Assembly: GCA_903819565.1 (NCBI GenBank)
Contig: CAIJDY010000102.1
Location: 1 to 42,091, forward strand
Direction: 5' to 3'
Length of the DNA stretch: 42,091 bases
Source: Candidatus Omnitrophota bacterium
GTDB taxonomy: Bacteria; Omnitrophota; Omnitrophia; Omnitrophales; Aquincolibacteriaceae
Under the pieces are notes generated by a model. It had not been told where the DNA came from. It ran no database searches and was given only the letters and a program-made list of their open reading frames with translations. Below, piece by piece: positions 14,223 to 26,353 of this stretch; within the stretch, counting starts at the first letter, position 1; each line of letters starts with the position of its first letter. The translations under genes were made by a program, and so were the position numbers.

Positions 14223-15611
14223 TTAATAAGTAACTTCAAAGCGAAGGATAAAGACGTGGGCCGTCTTGATATTTTCCTCCCCGGAGGGATTAAAAATGAT
14301 CTGGTAATCCGGCTGGATCATGAAACGCTCGTGAAGCTGGATGCGGTAAGTCGTTTCGAGGGCGGTTTCCTGGGAAAGAAGTTTCCCCGGCCGCGCACCC
14401 GCCTCCGGATCGGACGGATCGTAGGCCTCGATCTCGAGACTTCGCGATTTTTGAAGTTTTTCGCTCAAAAAAGCGTTAGCGACGGCGATCCCGAAAACGT
14501 CCTTCCCTCTCCTTGGGAGCAATCCGGTATAGTTCAGACCCGCCCCAAAATAATAATCCACGGTATTGCGGTCGTCAGGCGCCCCCCCGAACTGGAAGAA
14601 AACGCCGAGCCCGCGGGGTTCGTTTTCCTCGTTCTGGGAAGGGGTCCGCATATTCAAGAGGTTGGAAAAAAGGGCCGCCGGCCCCTGCCCGGGTTTTTCA
14701 CGATAAACCATCTGATCGATCAATCCATAAAAACCATAATCATTCCGGTGACGGAGGGGATTTCCGAACTCGTCGGTCGACAGGACATCGTCCACATTTT
14801 GTGTGTGCAGCCAGGACCCGAACTTAACACTTCCGGGCAAAGGTTCCATGGTGTTGTTCCACCGGATCTTCTGATGATAGGCCCCCTCGAAAAGAAGCAT
14901 CAGACCCTGGTCTTCGGAAAAACGGTAACGAACCCCATGACGGTTTTTCCCCCCGTCCGAAGGATCGCCATCGTAGATCCCGGCAAGGAATTCCACTTGT
15001 TCATGAGGTTTGATCCTGACGAGCGCCACGGGCCCGACGTCGGGGAAAAGAGAGACGGGAACATTCACTCCAAAGTCCGGCGGCGTTCCGAACGAGGTAT
15101 TGATGAACAGATCCCCGTATTCCGTCACCGCAAACGCGCTGTCAACCCCCTGAACGCCCACGAGAACGGAAAATTTATCTTTCCACAAACTCTGTTCATA
15201 CCACCACTCGTAGAGACGCACGGCGTCCGGAGCTTCCAGGTTATCCGCCAGCTGAAGATCCCCGATATATTTCTGGGTAGGATTGTTCCCTCCGTGGGAA
15301 TCGTTCCCGGAAACGAAAAATTTCCCGCCGGGGATCAACCCCGCTTTCCCAAGGTCCAGGGTCAGCGTCATTTCCAGGGTCCCGATGTAAGTCGTTCTGC
15401 GGTAGAGCCCGCCGTTCAGAACGCTGACCATGTCGCCGGTATAAGCCGCTTCGAAAGAAACGCCTTTTTCCTCCAACTCTTTACGCGGTTTTTCTAAAAA
15501 AACATCCGAGAACTCCAGCGAGAAAGCGTCGGCGGGGAATAACCCCAGAAGCAGGAAGGCTAACCCCGCTCCCAGGCCGCATTTCCGCAAAATGCAAAGA
15601 ACTGTTTTCAT
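14223..15611 (-). CDS. Carbohydrate-selective porin, OprB family
   Basis: A 462-residue outer-membrane beta-barrel protein. It has a signal peptide (hydrophobic stretch AGLAFLLLGLFPADAFS, cleavage near residue 28-30) and then OprB-type features: GVSFEAAYTGDMVSVLNGG, TLEMTLTLDLGKAGLIPGG, a WYEQSLWKDKFSVLVGVQG segment, and EFLAGIYDGDPSDGG. The C terminus ends ILRFEVTY, an aromatic terminal residue as in other barrels. OprB porins admit sugars and other small solutes. The gene lies 49 bases after the second Cys-rich gene of the Feo operon, so co-transcription with iron uptake is possible. Its own ribosome binding site is weak. Confidence 0.85.
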   Translation of the reverse strand: MKTVLCILRKCGLGAGLAFLLLGLFPADAFSLEFSDVFLEKPRKELEEKGVSFEAAYTGDMVSVLNGGLYRRTTYIGTLEMTLTLDLGKAGLIPGGKFFVSGNDSHGGNNPTQKYIGDLQLADNLEAPDAVRLYEWWYEQSLWKDKFSVLVGVQGVDSAFAVTEYGDLFINTSFGTPPDFGVNVPVSLFPDVGPVALVRIKPHEQVEFLAGIYDGDPSDGGKNRHGVRYRFSEDQGLMLLFEGAYHQKIRWNNTMEPLPGSVKFGSWLHTQNVDDVLSTDEFGNPLRHRNDYGFYGLIDQMVYREKPGQGPAALFSNLLNMRTPSQNEENEPRGLGVFFQFGGAPDDRNTVDYYFGAGLNYTGLLPRRGKDVFGIAVANAFLSEKLQKSRSLEIEAYDPSDPEAGARPGKLLSQETALETTYRIQLHERFMIQPDYQIIFNPSGEENIKTAHVFILRFEVTY

Positions 15612-15837: not shown

Positions 15838-16245
15838 TTATTCGAAGCCGAGCAGCCGACCGCCCTGATAAACCAGGAACGAACTCATCCAAGCGAGCCC
15901 TCTCATATAAGCGATCATGAAGAACAGCCAGCCCCAAGAACCGGCCTCTCGTTTAACTACGGCAAATGTCGAGAAACATTGACACGCCAGCACGTAGAAG
16001 ACCATCAGCGAAACCGCCACCAGCGGCGTGTAGAGCGGCTTGCCGGTTTCGGGGTCGCGCTCCCTCTGAAGCGCCTCGATCAGCCCCGCCGTCATCCCCT
16101 CGCCCTCGGTCTTGACATGGTGGCCGATCGCGAGAGTGCTAATAAGAAGCTCGCGCGCCGCAAAAGACGTGATAATCCCGATCTCCCAATTGAACCCGAG
16201 CGGGCGGATCAAGGGCTCGATTCCTTTGCTGCAATGAGCGTAAAA
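15838..16245 (-). pseudogene. C-terminal relic of a second feoB
   Basis: The reading frame encodes about 135 residues that match only the last fifth of FeoB: IEPLIRPLGFNWEIGIITSF (compare IEPVIRPLGFDWRGGIALIT in the intact FeoB upstream), AARELLISTLA (compare AAKEIVVSTFG), PLVAVSLMVFYVLACQCFSTFAVV and a final LVYQGGRLLGFE (compare LIFQGGRFLGFG). The G domain and most membrane helices are missing. Its first in-frame start-like codon is a TTG without a ribosome binding site, and an in-frame stop lies at 16276-16278. The relic begins about 15 bases after the upstream Cys-rich gene stops, which marks the deletion joint. It differs clearly from the intact copy, so it derives from a distinct paralogue and not a recent duplication. 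Confidence 0.8.
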
Positions 16246-16259
16246 CTCAAGCCTGTCGC

Positions 16260-16428: not shown

Positions 16429-18660
16429 TCAAGTGCCGAAGCCCAAAAATCTTCCGCCTTGAAATATCAAAAAAGCGACCACCCAAGCAAGCCCAAGACT
16501 GTATCCCACTGCGAACAACGTCCATTTCAGCGAGCCGAGTTCTCGATACATCACACCAAGCGTTCCTATGCATGGAATATAAATGAGCGTAAAAAACATG
16601 AATGCGAGCGCCGATAAAGGCGTCATTTCCTTCCTAAGAGCCTCTCGCAACCCTTCGCTGTCCGCCGCCGCATCGCCCCCCACCTGATACAGGACTCCGA
16701 AAGTGGAAACGACTATCTCTTTCGCGGCGATTCCGGTGATCAAAGCGATCCCGCCGCGCCAATCAAAACCCAGCGGACGGATGACCGGTTCTATCCACTG
16801 ACCCAGATGTCCCGCATAACTTTTCGATACCCGTTCTTTTTCTTTCCGGGCCTTGATCCCCGAGACCTCCGCCATCATGGCCTCCGCGGACTTCCGCTTC
16901 TGGGCCGCTCCGACCGATGTCGCGATCTTCGCTTCATAGCGGGTCTTCGTCTGTGCGATCGCCCGATCGAAATCCATGGAGTAATCGACGTTCCTCGGAA
17001 ATGCCGAAAGAAACCAAATGATCACCGAAGCCGCCAGAATAGTGCCACCGACCTTGCGAACGAAAACAGACCCTTTTTCCCACATGTGAATCATCACACT
17101 CTTAAAAAGCGGCCAGCGATAAGGAGGCAGCTCCATCACAAAGGGGGCCGTTTCGCCTTTGAAGATTGTCCGGCGGAAAAGTTGGCCGACCAGAATGGCG
17201 AGTACAAGTCCCGTCACGTAGATCCCAAAGATAAGGTTGCCCGCTTGTTGCGGGAAAAAGGCCCCGGCCAACAGAATATAAACGGGCAGCCGCGCGCTAC
17301 AGCTGACAAGTGGATTGATCAGGATGGTGAGCATACGATCGGATTTATTTTCCAAGGCCCGCGCGGCCATAATGGCCGGCACGTTGCAACCGAACCCCAT
17401 CACCATGGGGATAAACGATTTTCCGTGTAACCCTAGGGTGTGCATAATCCGGTCCATAATGAATGCGGCGCGTGCCATATACCCCGTATCTTCAAAAAGG
17501 GAGATAAAGAAAAAAAGGATCAGGATATTCGGAAGAAATACCAGCACCCCCCCCACCCCCGACACGATGCCGTCCACCACCAGCGCCTTCAACAATCCCT
17601 CCGGCATGACGCCGTTAAGAAAAGTCGCCAACAAGCCTACCCCGGAATCGATCCAATCCATCGGATAAGCACCTAACTTAAAGGTTGTCTGGAACATCAA
17701 CCATAGAAATCCGACAAGAATGGGAATCCCCAATAAACGATTGGTGACAATCTTGTCGATCTTGTCCGAAAGAGAGCGCCGGCCAGCGGCTTTTTCGTGA
17801 AAAACCTCCAGCAAAAGCCCCTTGATGAAACCGTACCGCCGGTCGGCCAACAAGATCTCCGACTCTTCGTGCAGGATCGTTTCGATATGTTTGTGACTTT
17901 TTTCAAGCTGCTCCAAGATTCCTTGGGCATTCGCGGAGGTTTTTTGTATATGCTCTTTGATACTCCCGTCATGTTCCAATAATTTGACCGAAAGCCAGCG
18001 CGTTGAATAGGCCGCCGTCAATGCCGGATCTTTTCGCATTTCCGCCTGGATCTTCCGAATCTCCTCCTCCACTTCGATCCCATAATTGATATGTAGGTGC
18101 CGTGACACAGGCTCTTCTTTTTCCGCGACTGCGACAATCTCTTTGAGAAGCTCCTGAAACCCAATGCCCCGGTTGCCCACCATGCTCACCACAGGCATTC
18201 CCAAAAGCTTGGCCAATAATTCCTTATCTACCGAAAGACCCTTATGTTCCGCTTCATCCGACATGTTGAGCGCAATCACGGCCCTCGCGCCCAGTTCGAT
18301 CAGCTGCGTCGTTAAATAAAGGTTCCGGTCCAGATTGGTAGAGTCGACCACATTCACCACGACATCCGGCCGCTCTTTAATGATGTAATCCCGGGCCACT
18401 ATCTCTTCCATGGAGTAAGCCGTCAAGCTATAAGTGCCCGGCAGATCGACGAACTCGATCTGATATGGGCCGAAGTTCGCGTGGCCGATCTTTTTCTCGA
18501 CCGTGACGCCCGCCCAATTCCCGACATGCTGGTTCCCTCCGGTCAATTCATTAAAGATACAGCTCTTTCCGGAATTGGGGTTTCCGCAAAGACCGACCTT
18601 GAGGATCTTTTTTTTATCTTCTGCCACCCAATTCTTCGCTTTAAGCGCTTGTGTCGACAT
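16429..18660 (-). CDS. feoB: Ferrous iron transporter FeoB
   Basis: A full-length (743 residues) Fe(II) transporter with an N-terminal G domain. G1 is GNPNSGKS (residues 26-33), the switch region GGNQHVGNWAGVTVE follows, G3 is DLPG (72-75) and G4 is NMSD. Then come the regulatory helical domain (about 175-280) and the membrane part with Gate motifs, including MGFGCNVPAIMAARALENKSDR and the SCSARLPVYILL helix, whose Cys lies on the proposed iron path. The C terminus ends FQGGRFLGFGT. The ATG follows the feoA stop immediately. It sits inside the fur-feoA-feoA-feoB operon, so expression should respond to iron through Fur. Confidence 0.97.
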   Translation of the reverse strand: MSTQALKAKNWVAEDKKKILKVGLCGNPNSGKSCIFNELTGGNQHVGNWAGVTVEKKIGHANFGPYQIEFVDLPGTYSLTAYSMEEIVARDYIIKERPDVVVNVVDSTNLDRNLYLTTQLIELGARAVIALNMSDEAEHKGLSVDKELLAKLLGMPVVSMVGNRGIGFQELLKEIVAVAEKEEPVSRHLHINYGIEVEEEIRKIQAEMRKDPALTAAYSTRWLSVKLLEHDGSIKEHIQKTSANAQGILEQLEKSHKHIETILHEESEILLADRRYGFIKGLLLEVFHEKAAGRRSLSDKIDKIVTNRLLGIPILVGFLWLMFQTTFKLGAYPMDWIDSGVGLLATFLNGVMPEGLLKALVVDGIVSGVGGVLVFLPNILILFFFISLFEDTGYMARAAFIMDRIMHTLGLHGKSFIPMVMGFGCNVPAIMAARALENKSDRMLTILINPLVSCSARLPVYILLAGAFFPQQAGNLIFGIYVTGLVLAILVGQLFRRTIFKGETAPFVMELPPYRWPLFKSVMIHMWEKGSVFVRKVGGTILAASVIIWFLSAFPRNVDYSMDFDRAIAQTKTRYEAKIATSVGAAQKRKSAEAMMAEVSGIKARKEKERVSKSYAGHLGQWIEPVIRPLGFDWRGGIALITGIAAKEIVVSTFGVLYQVGGDAAADSEGLREALRKEMTPLSALAFMFFTLIYIPCIGTLGVMYRELGSLKWTLFAVGYSLGLAWVVAFLIFQGGRFLGFGT

Positions 18661-18894
18661 TCAATTTTTCCCTTCGTGAAGAGCGATGTGAATATGATGA
18701 GCGACCTTCCGATCGATCGCGATCCTGGCCCCCGAAAGCCCGACGATCAAATGGTCCCCGACGGCACGCTGGATCATTTCAACGGTGCGTCCGAAAACAA
18801 ACCCGAGCCCTGAAAGATACTGTCGCATCTTCGGCTGACCGGTCAGCAGGACCACTTGGGCCTTTTCACCGATCCCCAATAAGGTAAGCGTCAT
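18661..18894 (-). CDS. feoA: FeoA-family protein (proximal to feoB)
   Basis: A 77-residue SH3-like FeoA domain protein thought to act on FeoB at the inner face of the membrane. Typical elements are QVVLLTGQPKMRQYLSGLGF, FGRTVEMIQRAVGDHLIVG and the final SGARIAIDRKVAHHIHI. Its ribosome binding site (GGGAGG) lies within the last codons of the upstream feoA, and its stop TGA directly abuts the feoB ATG, so translation of all three is probably coupled. Confidence 0.9.
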   Translation of the reverse strand: MTLTLLGIGEKAQVVLLTGQPKMRQYLSGLGFVFGRTVEMIQRAVGDHLIVGLSGARIAIDRKVAHHIHIALHEGKN

Positions 18895-18900
18895 TTCTTT

Positions 18901-19143
18901 TCAACCTCCCTGCATTCGTTCCACCTGAACATCATTCGCTTCCTCGCGCCGCAACGATAAATGGTAACCTTTCAGGACCAACTCCATGGGATCCCCCAGG
19001 GGGGCGACCTTCTCGACATAAAGCTCGGTCCCTTTCACAAATCCCATTTCCAGTAATCGTTTCTTGATCGCCCGCTCGCCCGTAACCTTGACGATGCGGC
19101 ACTTTCCGCTCACTTCAAGTTCACTTAGCTTCATGGTTCTCAT
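18901..19143 (-). CDS. feoA: FeoA-family protein (proximal to fur)
   Basis: An 80-residue FeoA domain protein: MKLSELEVSGKCRIVKVTGE, then KKRLLEMGFVKGTELYVEKVAPLGDPMEL and KGYHLSLRREEANDVQVE. The RLLEMGFVKGTEL core is the classical FeoA signature, and this copy is more canonical than the one next to feoB. ATG 19143 is chosen because GGAGG lies seven bases upstream; this makes the gene overlap the end of fur by 23 bases. Two FeoA proteins with one FeoB is a known arrangement in anaerobes. Confidence 0.92.
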   Translation of the reverse strand: MRTMKLSELEVSGKCRIVKVTGERAIKKRLLEMGFVKGTELYVEKVAPLGDPMELVLKGYHLSLRREEANDVQVERMQGG

Positions 19144-19636
19144 GAACGGCCCTCCTCGCGCCCTTTTCCACGTTATTCGAGCACCGGGCACACTCGACAA
19201 ATAACCGGTGATCATGGTAGATCAGCTTGCACCGGTGTTTCTCGCAAAGTTTTTGTTGCAAAGCCTCAAAGGCTTCGCTCCTAAATTCGACGATCGTTCC
19301 ACAATGGACACAGATCATGTGGTCATGATGGCCCCCGGCTTCCATGTTTTCAAAATACTCCCGCTTACCTTCCCCAGCGGACTTTTGAACCCTCCCGGCT
19401 TCTAGCAGCAACGGAAGATTCCGGTAAACAGTGTCGCGGGAGATCGGCAACCCCTTCGCCTTGAACCGCTCAAACAGTTCGTCAGCATCAAAATGATTAT
19501 TCATCGAGGCGACCTCTTCGTAGATCTTCTGCCGTTCCAGGGTGACTTTGAGGCCTTTCTTTTTAAGAAGCTCCGCAAAGGCCGCCTCACCCCCGCCCCT
19601 CCCTTTCCCCAAAGATCGTTTTCGTCCTGTTCTCAC
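19121..19636 (-). CDS. fur: Fur-family iron-responsive repressor
   Basis: A 171-residue Fur-family regulator. The winged helix spans about residues 20-95 (LKVTLERQKIYEEVASMNNHFDADELFERF and GLPISRDTVYRNLPLLLEAG). The dimer/metal domain has HHDHMICVHCGTIVEF and ECARC, giving the two CxxC pairs of a structural zinc site plus the His-rich regulatory site. It starts at GTG 19636 behind GGAGGGG. The position at the head of the feo operon, overlapping feoA, points to iron-dependent autoregulation together with Fe(II) uptake. Zur or PerR specificity cannot be excluded by sequence alone, but the context favours iron. Confidence 0.9.
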   Translation of the reverse strand: MRTGRKRSLGKGRGGGEAAFAELLKKKGLKVTLERQKIYEEVASMNNHFDADELFERFKAKGLPISRDTVYRNLPLLLEAGRVQKSAGEGKREYFENMEAGGHHDHMICVHCGTIVEFRSEAFEALQQKLCEKHRCKLIYHDHRLFVECARCSNNVEKGARRAVHENHEAK

Positions 19637-20140: not shown

Positions 20141-22173
20141 TTACTCCCAGGCGCTTTGATAACCGTTCACGGACTCCACATAGCGGAGCAGGTCGTCGAA
20201 AAAAGAAAGATTGGAAAGCGTCGCGCTGTCGCCGATCACGATCAGCTTGCGGCGGGCCCGGGTCATCGCGACGTTCATGCGGCGGGTGTCCGTCAAAAAA
20301 CCCAGCTGCCCCTCGCGGTTCGACCGCACCAGCGAAACGATCACGGCCTCTTTCTCGCGTCCCTGGAACGCGTCGACACTGTCGATCTCCAGCGCGCTCA
20401 GTTCCCCGGGTCCCCTTGCTCTCCCAGGATCATGCCGGTCAACAACTTCACCTGCGCGCTGTAAGGACTGATCAGCCCGATCTCCGACGGAGGGACGCCG
20501 GCCTTGAGCAATCGCTTCATCTCCCCGATCACGATCCTGGCTTCATGCGCGTTGTAAGAGCTCGCGGTCCCTTCTTCGGTCTCCTCTTCATGCCCCGACC
20601 CGGCGGTATCCAGAAAAATAAAAGGCGTCGCGTCAATGTCCTGGGCTTTTATATAAGGAAGATCGTGCAAGGTATGGCGCGCCACGGAAGGATCGGCCTT
20701 GAGCGCGCCGTCATAGAACTCTTTGGATGAAAAATCCATAATGTGTTCGTGCATGCGGTATTGCCTTTCCAGCCGCACCTTGGAGGTCCCGTCCAGCGCG
20801 TCGTGCAGCCGTTCGAAAAGCGTGTACGTCAGCCCTTTTTTACCGTGCTGCGGACACTGGACCGTGGGAGGAAGCTGGCAATGGTCGCCGGCCATCACCA
20901 CTTTTCCGGCATGAAGGACCGGAAGCCACGTGCTCGGCTCGGTCCCCTGCGTCGCTTCGTCGATGATCACCCAGTCGAACGCCTTCGCCTTGATCAACGG
21001 GTCGCCGCAGCCCGTGTGCGTGGCCACGATCACGTCCGAAGCGTTCCAGACCTGTTTGAAGATCTGCGTGCGCAGGTCCCGGTTGTCGTCCCGGAGCTTG
21101 TCGATCTCGTCCCGCATGCCGCGCCGCTCTTCCCACGACATCACGCGGCGGTCCTGCCGCCGTTCCTTCTGCCGGGCGAACTGCTCCAGCTTCGCCTCGT
21201 TCTCATCGATCATTTTGGCATAAGGATGTTTGGCGAGCTTATAACTCAAGGTGTGTTCGCGGATCCGTTCGGAGATGCGCGCCGGCTGTCCCAGGCGGGT
21301 GACCGGGATCTCTTTTTCCACAAGACATTCCACCAGATAATCGCAGGCGGCATTGCTCGGAGCGGAAACAAGGACCGCTTCCCCGCGCTTGGTCGCCTGG
21401 TGGATGATCTCTGTCAGCACGCGCGTCTTTCCGGTCCCGGGCGGGCCGTGGATCAGCAGAACATCTTCGGCCTCCGCCGCCATGCAGACCGCTTTCTTCT
21501 GATCGTCATTGAGCGTCCGGTCGAGGAATTCCGTTTTCTCCGGCACGACAGGATCCCGGAAGCGCGGCTTCTTGAGCCCGAGGCTGAGGTCCCGGAAATA
21601 AGCGAGGCGGGAATGTTCCGCCTGCCGGACCGCCTGCAGCGCGTCATACATGCGCTGGTAGGTCGTGCGGTTCTCCGTCAGGTTCAGCTGAAAACTTTTT
21701 TCGCGGCTCACCCATTCCGGGATCCGGCCGCTGAACGCGACCGTGATCCTCCAGCGGTCTTTTTCATAGACCGACCCGTTCGGGCACTCGGACCCCGGTG
21801 TCTGGAAACCGGACAACGAGACCACGTCCCCGACGTTCAGGGAATAACGCGGCAACGGACGGTTGCTCTGAAAAGCGAAGGTCAGCAGTTTCTGGCCGGA
21901 AGGATTGAAATGGGTCTCCAAAAGTTCAAGCCGGAAAAGGGCTTTTCCCCTTCGTTCCCTTTCTTCCGGACGCCGCTCGAGGATCTCGCTCCGGTAGCGG
22001 GCGCGTTCTTCGCGCTCTTCGTCGCGGAGCAGGCGCGTCAGATGAAGAAAATGCTTTTCGGTGACCGCCTCGTCGCCGACCCAGACCTTCCGTTCCTCTT
22101 TCTTGTCGGGCCGCGGAAGCGGCGGGAGCACCGGCTTTTTTTTATGCGGCCGGTCGCGGTAGGTGTGCGCCAT
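20141..22173 (-). CDS. Upf1/SMUBP2-like SF1 helicase, frameshifted near its C terminus
   Basis: DNA/RNA helicase of superfamily 1B. From ATG 22173 (MAHTYRDRPHKKK) the first frame gives 591 residues: a charged N-terminal region, an OB-like part (about 80-165), Walker A GPPGTGKT (243-250), DEATQ (motif II), GDHCQLPP (motif III) and LERQYRMHEHIM (motif IV), ending prematurely in GEQGDPGN at 20398. The next frame continues without a gap: ELSALEIDSVDAFQGREKEA (motif V) and RRMNVAMTRARRKLIVIGD (motif VI), to 20141. Joining needs one extra G in the run GGGGACCCGGGG (about 20406-20418 on the plus strand), giving about 677 residues. Either a base is missing in the assembly, the gene is recently broken, or a -1 shift occurs. 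The ATG lies 11 bases after the YjbQ stop and lacks a clear ribosome binding site. Confidence 0.85.
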
Positions 22174-24916: not shown

Positions 24917-26305
24917 TTAACTTTTTTCCGGATCTTCCTCATCTCCGAAACCTTCGGTTTGAAAGACCTCGATCACGGCCTTTCCCAGGTCCGCCTCGTC
25001 CAGCCCCGCCTTTTCCAAGGCGCAGCTCCGGAAAAAAGTCTCCCGGTCCCATCCCGTTTCGGTCGCGACCTCCGGAAGATAAACGCCTTTTCGTCCGCCG
25101 CAGCTCACGATGATCCCGTCCACTCCGAGTCGGATATCCTTGAAAGACTTCACGGGAACGGGCACCGTCAAAAGCGAAACATGGACCCGGAGCACTTCAA
25201 GGTCCCGGAGCGTTACGGGCGGAAAACGCGGATCCTCAAAAGCCGCCGCCAGTGCCATGTCGCGAATGCTTTCGCGAAGAGGCTGGTGCCCCACGATCTG
25301 CCCGATACAGCCCCGGAGCGCTTTCTTTTCTTTCAGCGTAACAAAGATCCCCCGTTTTTCTTCCATCACGTCCGTCTTGAGCGTCAGCACGGGCAACGGC
25401 TTCCTTTGGAGGGCCGCGCGTAAAACCTCATAAACGTAAGCCAGGATCACTTTTTTTTCCGCGGCTTGGAGGCCTTCGGTCCGCCGGAACGCCAAGGCGG
25501 CATACCCGACCACCGAACCCCGCTCTCCCGTCACGTCCCCCGAATTTTCGTACCGGATCAAAGTGGGTCCTTTCCAGCCCCGCCCTTTCGAGAGTTTGAC
25601 CATAGTCAGCATCGGCCCCATACCGCACGCCTCGATCTCTCCCCGGGCGTGGGTCTCGCCGAGGGTCTGAAAATCCGCCTGTTCGAAAAGGGCGATGAGC
25701 CGCTTGTCTTTTTGCACCGCAGTTCCGTAAGGATGAAAATGCGAAAGATCGCTGGTCGCCACGACCAGGACTTCCCGGCCTTCCGTCACTTCGGCCAGGG
25801 CCTCCGCCAAAACGGTGATGTTCCGGACATTCTGCTCTCCAAAGAAAACAGGAACTATTTTCAGGCCGGGAATGACTTCCTGCAGGAATGGGAGCTGGAC
25901 CTCCAGGGAATGTTCTTCCAGACGGCCTTTGAATTCGTCCTGGAGCAGCGGGTGGAACTTCCGGAGTTGGCGGACCATGTCCTGATCCACCGGTACGCGT
26001 CCCAGGGGCGTTTCGTAGAAATCCGCGTCATCCACCAGCACGCCGGGAAGAAAACACCGGTGTAAAAAGGCCACGACAATCACGGCGTCGAACTTCCTGC
26101 CCTGGACAGTCCTGTAAGCCTCCGCCGCGACCCGTCCGGAATAATCATATCCCGCGTGCGGGACAATAAGCCCGCAAACCTTGGCGTCCGTCTGGGAACG
26201 GCCTTGAGCGAGCAGTTGACGCACCTGTCCTTTGAGGGACTCCCGAGCCTCGGGATAGAATTGACCGCTCACCGCCGCCGCACGAACTCTTTCCTGAGGT
26301 TTCAT
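24917..26305 (-). CDS. amrB-amrA: AmmeMemoRadiSam protein B-A fusion (Memo + AMMECR1)
   Basis: A 462-residue fusion of two normally separate proteins. The N-terminal Memo domain (about 1-275) has GLIVPHAGYDYSGR, EEHSLEVQLPFLQEVIPG, ATSDLSHFHPYGTAV and ACGMGPMLTMVKLS; it resembles non-heme iron dioxygenases. The C-terminal AMMECR1 domain (about 280-460) has RGIFVTLKEKKALRGCIGQI, AAAFEDPRFPPV and GGRKGVYLPEVATETGWDRE. These are AmmeMemoRadiSam proteins B and A; the radical SAM partner is at 30986 on the other strand. Start at ATG 26305 (MKPQERVRAAAVSG) is favoured by AGGGAG eight bases upstream over an in-frame ATG at 26338. The natural reaction of the system is not known to me. Confidence 0.93.
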   Translation of the reverse strand: MKPQERVRAAAVSGQFYPEARESLKGQVRQLLAQGRSQTDAKVCGLIVPHAGYDYSGRVAAEAYRTVQGRKFDAVIVVAFLHRCFLPGVLVDDADFYETPLGRVPVDQDMVRQLRKFHPLLQDEFKGRLEEHSLEVQLPFLQEVIPGLKIVPVFFGEQNVRNITVLAEALAEVTEGREVLVVATSDLSHFHPYGTAVQKDKRLIALFEQADFQTLGETHARGEIEACGMGPMLTMVKLSKGRGWKGPTLIRYENSGDVTGERGSVVGYAALAFRRTEGLQAAEKKVILAYVYEVLRAALQRKPLPVLTLKTDVMEEKRGIFVTLKEKKALRGCIGQIVGHQPLRESIRDMALAAAFEDPRFPPVTLRDLEVLRVHVSLLTVPVPVKSFKDIRLGVDGIIVSCGGRKGVYLPEVATETGWDRETFFRSCALEKAGLDEADLGKAVIEVFQTEGFGDEEDPEKS

Positions 26306-26353
26306 GGCGAAACTCCCTGAAATTGAAAAAGCCGGCAAGTACCAGAAAACAGA

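Follow-up and report, generated by a model that had tools for sequence, protein, structure and literature searches.

The window analysed here, a stretch of 42,091 nucleotides that makes up contig C102 of an Omnitrophota bacterium, contains an SF1 helicase gene on the minus strand that occupies two reading frames. The question raised by this locus is whether the gene is read in some unusual way, is divided into two cooperating proteins, or has simply come to lack a base. Our analysis shows that it is an ordinary one-base disruption that involves no novel mode of decoding. Very probably, this Omnitrophota gene is an unremarkable SF1 helicase of the IGHMBP2 family from which one base is missing, owing to either a recent one-base deletion or a base dropped from the consensus. 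The features discussed below are as follows.

20401-22173, minus strand: first 591 codons of the helicase gene (its 5' part), covering motifs I-IV and the ISPYSAQVKLL block and ending just before the TGA at 20400-20398
20398-20400, minus strand: premature TGA of frame A
20401-20420, minus strand: junction with GGGGACCCGGGGAAC, at which the open frame lacks one base; it holds the 0-frame heptamer C_CCG_GGG and was aligned with 16 relatives
20144-20410, minus strand: downstream (3') part of the gene, open in the -1 frame, with motifs V and VI and the C-terminus, identified by profile matches and identity to homologues
20348-20383, minus strand: motif V, DSVDAFQGREKE
20228-20275, minus strand: motif VI, NVAMTRARRKLIVIGD

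Gene Structure and Family Assignment

Frame A extends on the minus strand from the ATG at 22173 through 591 codons to the TGA at 20400-20398, and encodes GPPGTGKT (21447-21424), SAPSN, DWVIIDEAT, GDHCQLPP, QYRMH (20763-20749), and ISPYSAQVKLL (20472-20440). Frame B, the -1 frame, reads ELSALEIDSVDAFQGREKE...RRMNVAMTRARRKLIVIGD... and closes at the TAA at 20143-20141; it contributes motif V (EIDSVDAFQGREKE) and motif VI (NVAMTRARRKLIVIGD). No single polypeptide carries motifs I-VI, as the last two sit in the other frame. The two pieces match consecutive segments of the same profiles: positions 2-129 and 138-194, respectively, of PF13087 (Pfam AAA_12), and positions up to 549 and 555-631 of TIGR00376 (NCBIfam, IGHMBP2-family helicase). 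Against TIGR00376, whose curated cut-off is 348.9 bits, the 5' part by itself reaches 394.9 bits, and the 3' part by itself reaches 115 bits over its segment. The closest solved proteins are SMUBP-2 (PDB 4b3f/4b3g) and, next, UPF1. The sequence-only reading, which had proposed an SF1 helicase split over two frames between motifs IV and V, is thus borne out by the motifs and by both profiles.

On these matches, the gene is best read as a descendant of the TIGR00376 family that, as it stands, would encode an incomplete member. It resembles the UPF1-like SF1 helicases of this family in that both pieces match consecutive profile segments and every motif is retained; it differs in the interruption of the frame between motifs IV and V, where one base is missing. 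The 89 residues downstream of the break are 91% identical to the C-terminus of an intact homologue from the same genus, and the frame break is therefore well beyond chance.

The Junction

The minus-strand sequence at the junction is GGGGACCCGGGGAACTGA, one base too few for an open frame, the missing base falling in GGGGACCCGGGG. In the DNA alignment with relatives, the break falls within a variable loop that follows the ISPYSAQVKLL block and precedes motif V. Among the relatives, L006, for instance, has GDKSDPGELASLEIDSVDAF in this loop, and the window corresponds to GEQGDPGELSALEIDSVDAF minus one base, as would fit a base lost from the second G run. Since relatives read ...DPGEL... there, one G is most likely absent from that run, in agreement with the earlier proposal that a single added G would join the frames. 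In the ancestor, the run was probably G5, a length mildly prone to slippage. The description of the break as a possible homopolymer error held up less well: the run has only four Gs, and 1,121 G4 runs occur in the genome sample, so that the helicase run is unexceptional.

Comparison with Relatives and Selection

The helicase was found in all 27 family genomes searched, and the genome of the window has no second copy. In every one of the 25 family genomes whose assembly covers the site, the gene is read through in a single frame, and the same break was found in none of them; these comparisons with homologues from related genomes, which had been suggested at the outset, include two congeneric genomes (identities of 88% and 81%) in which the gene is also intact. 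The break is unique to one lineage with its relatives intact, as in a recent pseudogene. The collections searched yielded no further genome of this species. Several candidates for a shared hot spot were rejected: the splits at residues about 296-340 in G010, G015, and G021 correspond to runs of N in the assemblies, and in G019 the gene merely lies across two contigs.

Both parts of the gene are well kept. Relative to G002, dN is 0.065 and dS 0.739 in the 5' part (dN/dS about 0.09), and 0.055 and 0.534, respectively, in the 3' part (dN/dS about 0.10). When changes were polarised, 32 nonsynonymous and 53 synonymous changes fell in the 5' part and four and eight in the 3' part on the branch leading to the window, the corresponding numbers on the G002 branch being 33 and 71, and four and ten. 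A rough binomial bound limits the share of the branch spent under no selection to about 15-20% at most. No second disabling change was seen in the gene. The two parts are under equally strong purifying selection and neither bears a mark of decay; therefore, the break either is very recent or is absent in the organism.

Genome and Assembly Quality

The genome (2.1 Mb in 229 contigs, 84% complete) appears, from its fragmentation and its relatives, to be a short-read metagenome assembly from an uncultured bacterium; its nameable relatives are metagenome-assembled Omnitrophota genomes. In a hexamer-based scan of 212 kb of genome stretches, which is insensitive to breaks near start codons, the helicase was the only strong same-strand switch of frame without a nearby start codon, and the excess of frame breaks expected of an error-prone assembly was not seen in this sample. 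Among the window genes with orthologues in the compared contigs (G001, G002, and G018), no other frameshifted gene was found. A lone frame switch in 212 kb argues against an assembly ridden with indels throughout, and is compatible with either a real deletion or a single local error in the consensus.

Neighboring Genes

Several genes around the helicase differ from their counterparts in relatives. A remnant of feoB encoding about 140 C-terminal residues (15841-16254, minus strand) is 86% identical to its counterpart at the corresponding position in G002, where feoB is full length (678 aa); apart from this remnant, the ancestral feoB is gone from the window. Where relatives carry the ancestral feoB, the window has instead a cluster made up of fur, feoA-like genes, and another feoB (16429-19636, minus strand). 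The new FeoB has 36% identity to the ancestral one, and, as no match above 44% identity was found in the relatives searched, its sequence suggests acquisition from outside the family by horizontal replacement. An OprB-family porin gene (14223-15611, minus strand) adjoins the remnant, with no counterpart seen there in the G002 contig. Finally, a single gene (24935-26317, minus strand) combines the Memo and AMMECR1 domains, which are apparently encoded by two adjacent genes in G018; what could be taken for a second frame break in that relative looks like this gene pair and not like a frameshift.

Weighing the Explanations

The sequence-only reading offered a very recent break, an error, or -1 frameshifting. 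The former two share nearly all of the probability and are nearly equally likely. A genuine one-base deletion, fixed or polymorphic in the sequenced population, which would make the helicase a fresh pseudogene, is given just under an even chance. It agrees with the rest of the genome sample being free of such breaks, with the probable ancestral G5 run, with true gene decay nearby (feoB, cut to its C-terminal part), and with the fragmentation into 229 contigs, which resembles a short-read assembly, where miscalled runs of four or five Gs are uncommon. However, relaxed selection was detected in neither part, and loss of a gene present throughout the family would be unusual. If the deletion is real, translation would halt after 591 residues at the TGA, and the truncated product would be devoid of motifs V and VI and hence of the motif VI arginine. 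In the helicase superfamily, this arginine is required for ATP hydrolysis. With both motifs missing, the product is predicted to be inactive.

A sequencing, assembly, or polishing error, with the gene intact in the living organism, is hardly less plausible. The absence of any trace of decay in the downstream part, the universal conservation of the gene in the family, and the GC-rich run at the site all point to it, although 212 kb of the same genome show no excess of frame breaks and the run is short, with over 1,100 like it elsewhere in the sample. In the GeneTack survey, singleton frameshifts validated by homology are classed as sequencing errors or recent indels, with errors expected to outnumber real indels among them (PMC3711429). 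The helicase shows no notable difference from these singletons, being unique to one genome and having its frameshift validated by homology and Pfam.

The third option was that programmed or tolerated -1 frameshifting at C_CCG_GGG yields the full-length helicase, the 591-residue form being a by-product. The 0-frame sequence GAC CCG GGG AAC TGA does contain this heptamer, formally X_XXZ_ZZN and placed exactly right, as in bacterial -1 programmed frameshifting of the dnaX and IS3/IS911 type; some 10 nt upstream is a purine-rich GGGAG, and a -1 slip would yield ...GDPGELSALEIDSVDAF..., matching relatives such as L006. However, the correct -1 product arises by construction from any one-base deletion in the run, so that the restored ancestral peptide is not independent support, and X_XXZ_ZZN patterns are common in the genome (602 in 81,330 ORF codons). 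Unlike the known systems, the helicase site is unconserved, unstructured, and of a weak heptamer type: none of the 25 covering relatives has the break, and pseudoknot-free folding gave no stimulatory RNA structure stronger than in shuffled sequences, either in the downstream 69 nt (z = +0.35) or in the 92 nt spanning the site (z = +0.34). Two nearly identical heptamers performed poorly in a systematic study in E. coli (PMC4066793): C_CCG_GGC failed to reach the threshold even when paired with a strong stimulator, and C_CCG_GGU is described as shifting poorly. With an unconserved break, no unusual structure, and a poorly shifting type of heptamer, programmed frameshifting is unlikely, and we consider its chance small. 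Slightly smaller still is the chance that a "saviour" frameshift has only just arisen, in which a lineage-specific -1 shift at C_CCG_GGG would rescue the newly deleted base and keep the helicase functional. Least probable, to the point of being negligible, is a split helicase of two separately translated proteins that assemble. Both frames are intact as sequence, but no relative is split at the site, and the first ATG, GTG, or TTG of the downstream frame is the GTG at 20344, past motif V. As no start codon precedes motif V in this frame, an independent subunit with motifs V and VI is not credible, and separate translation of the C-terminal part is nearly refuted.

Significance

Taken alone, the locus is of little significance, being a further case of a gene with a broken frame in a genome assembled from environmental DNA. 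In annotation, the helicase gene should be flagged as carrying a likely indel, and should be counted neither as a new frameshifting element nor as a split helicase.
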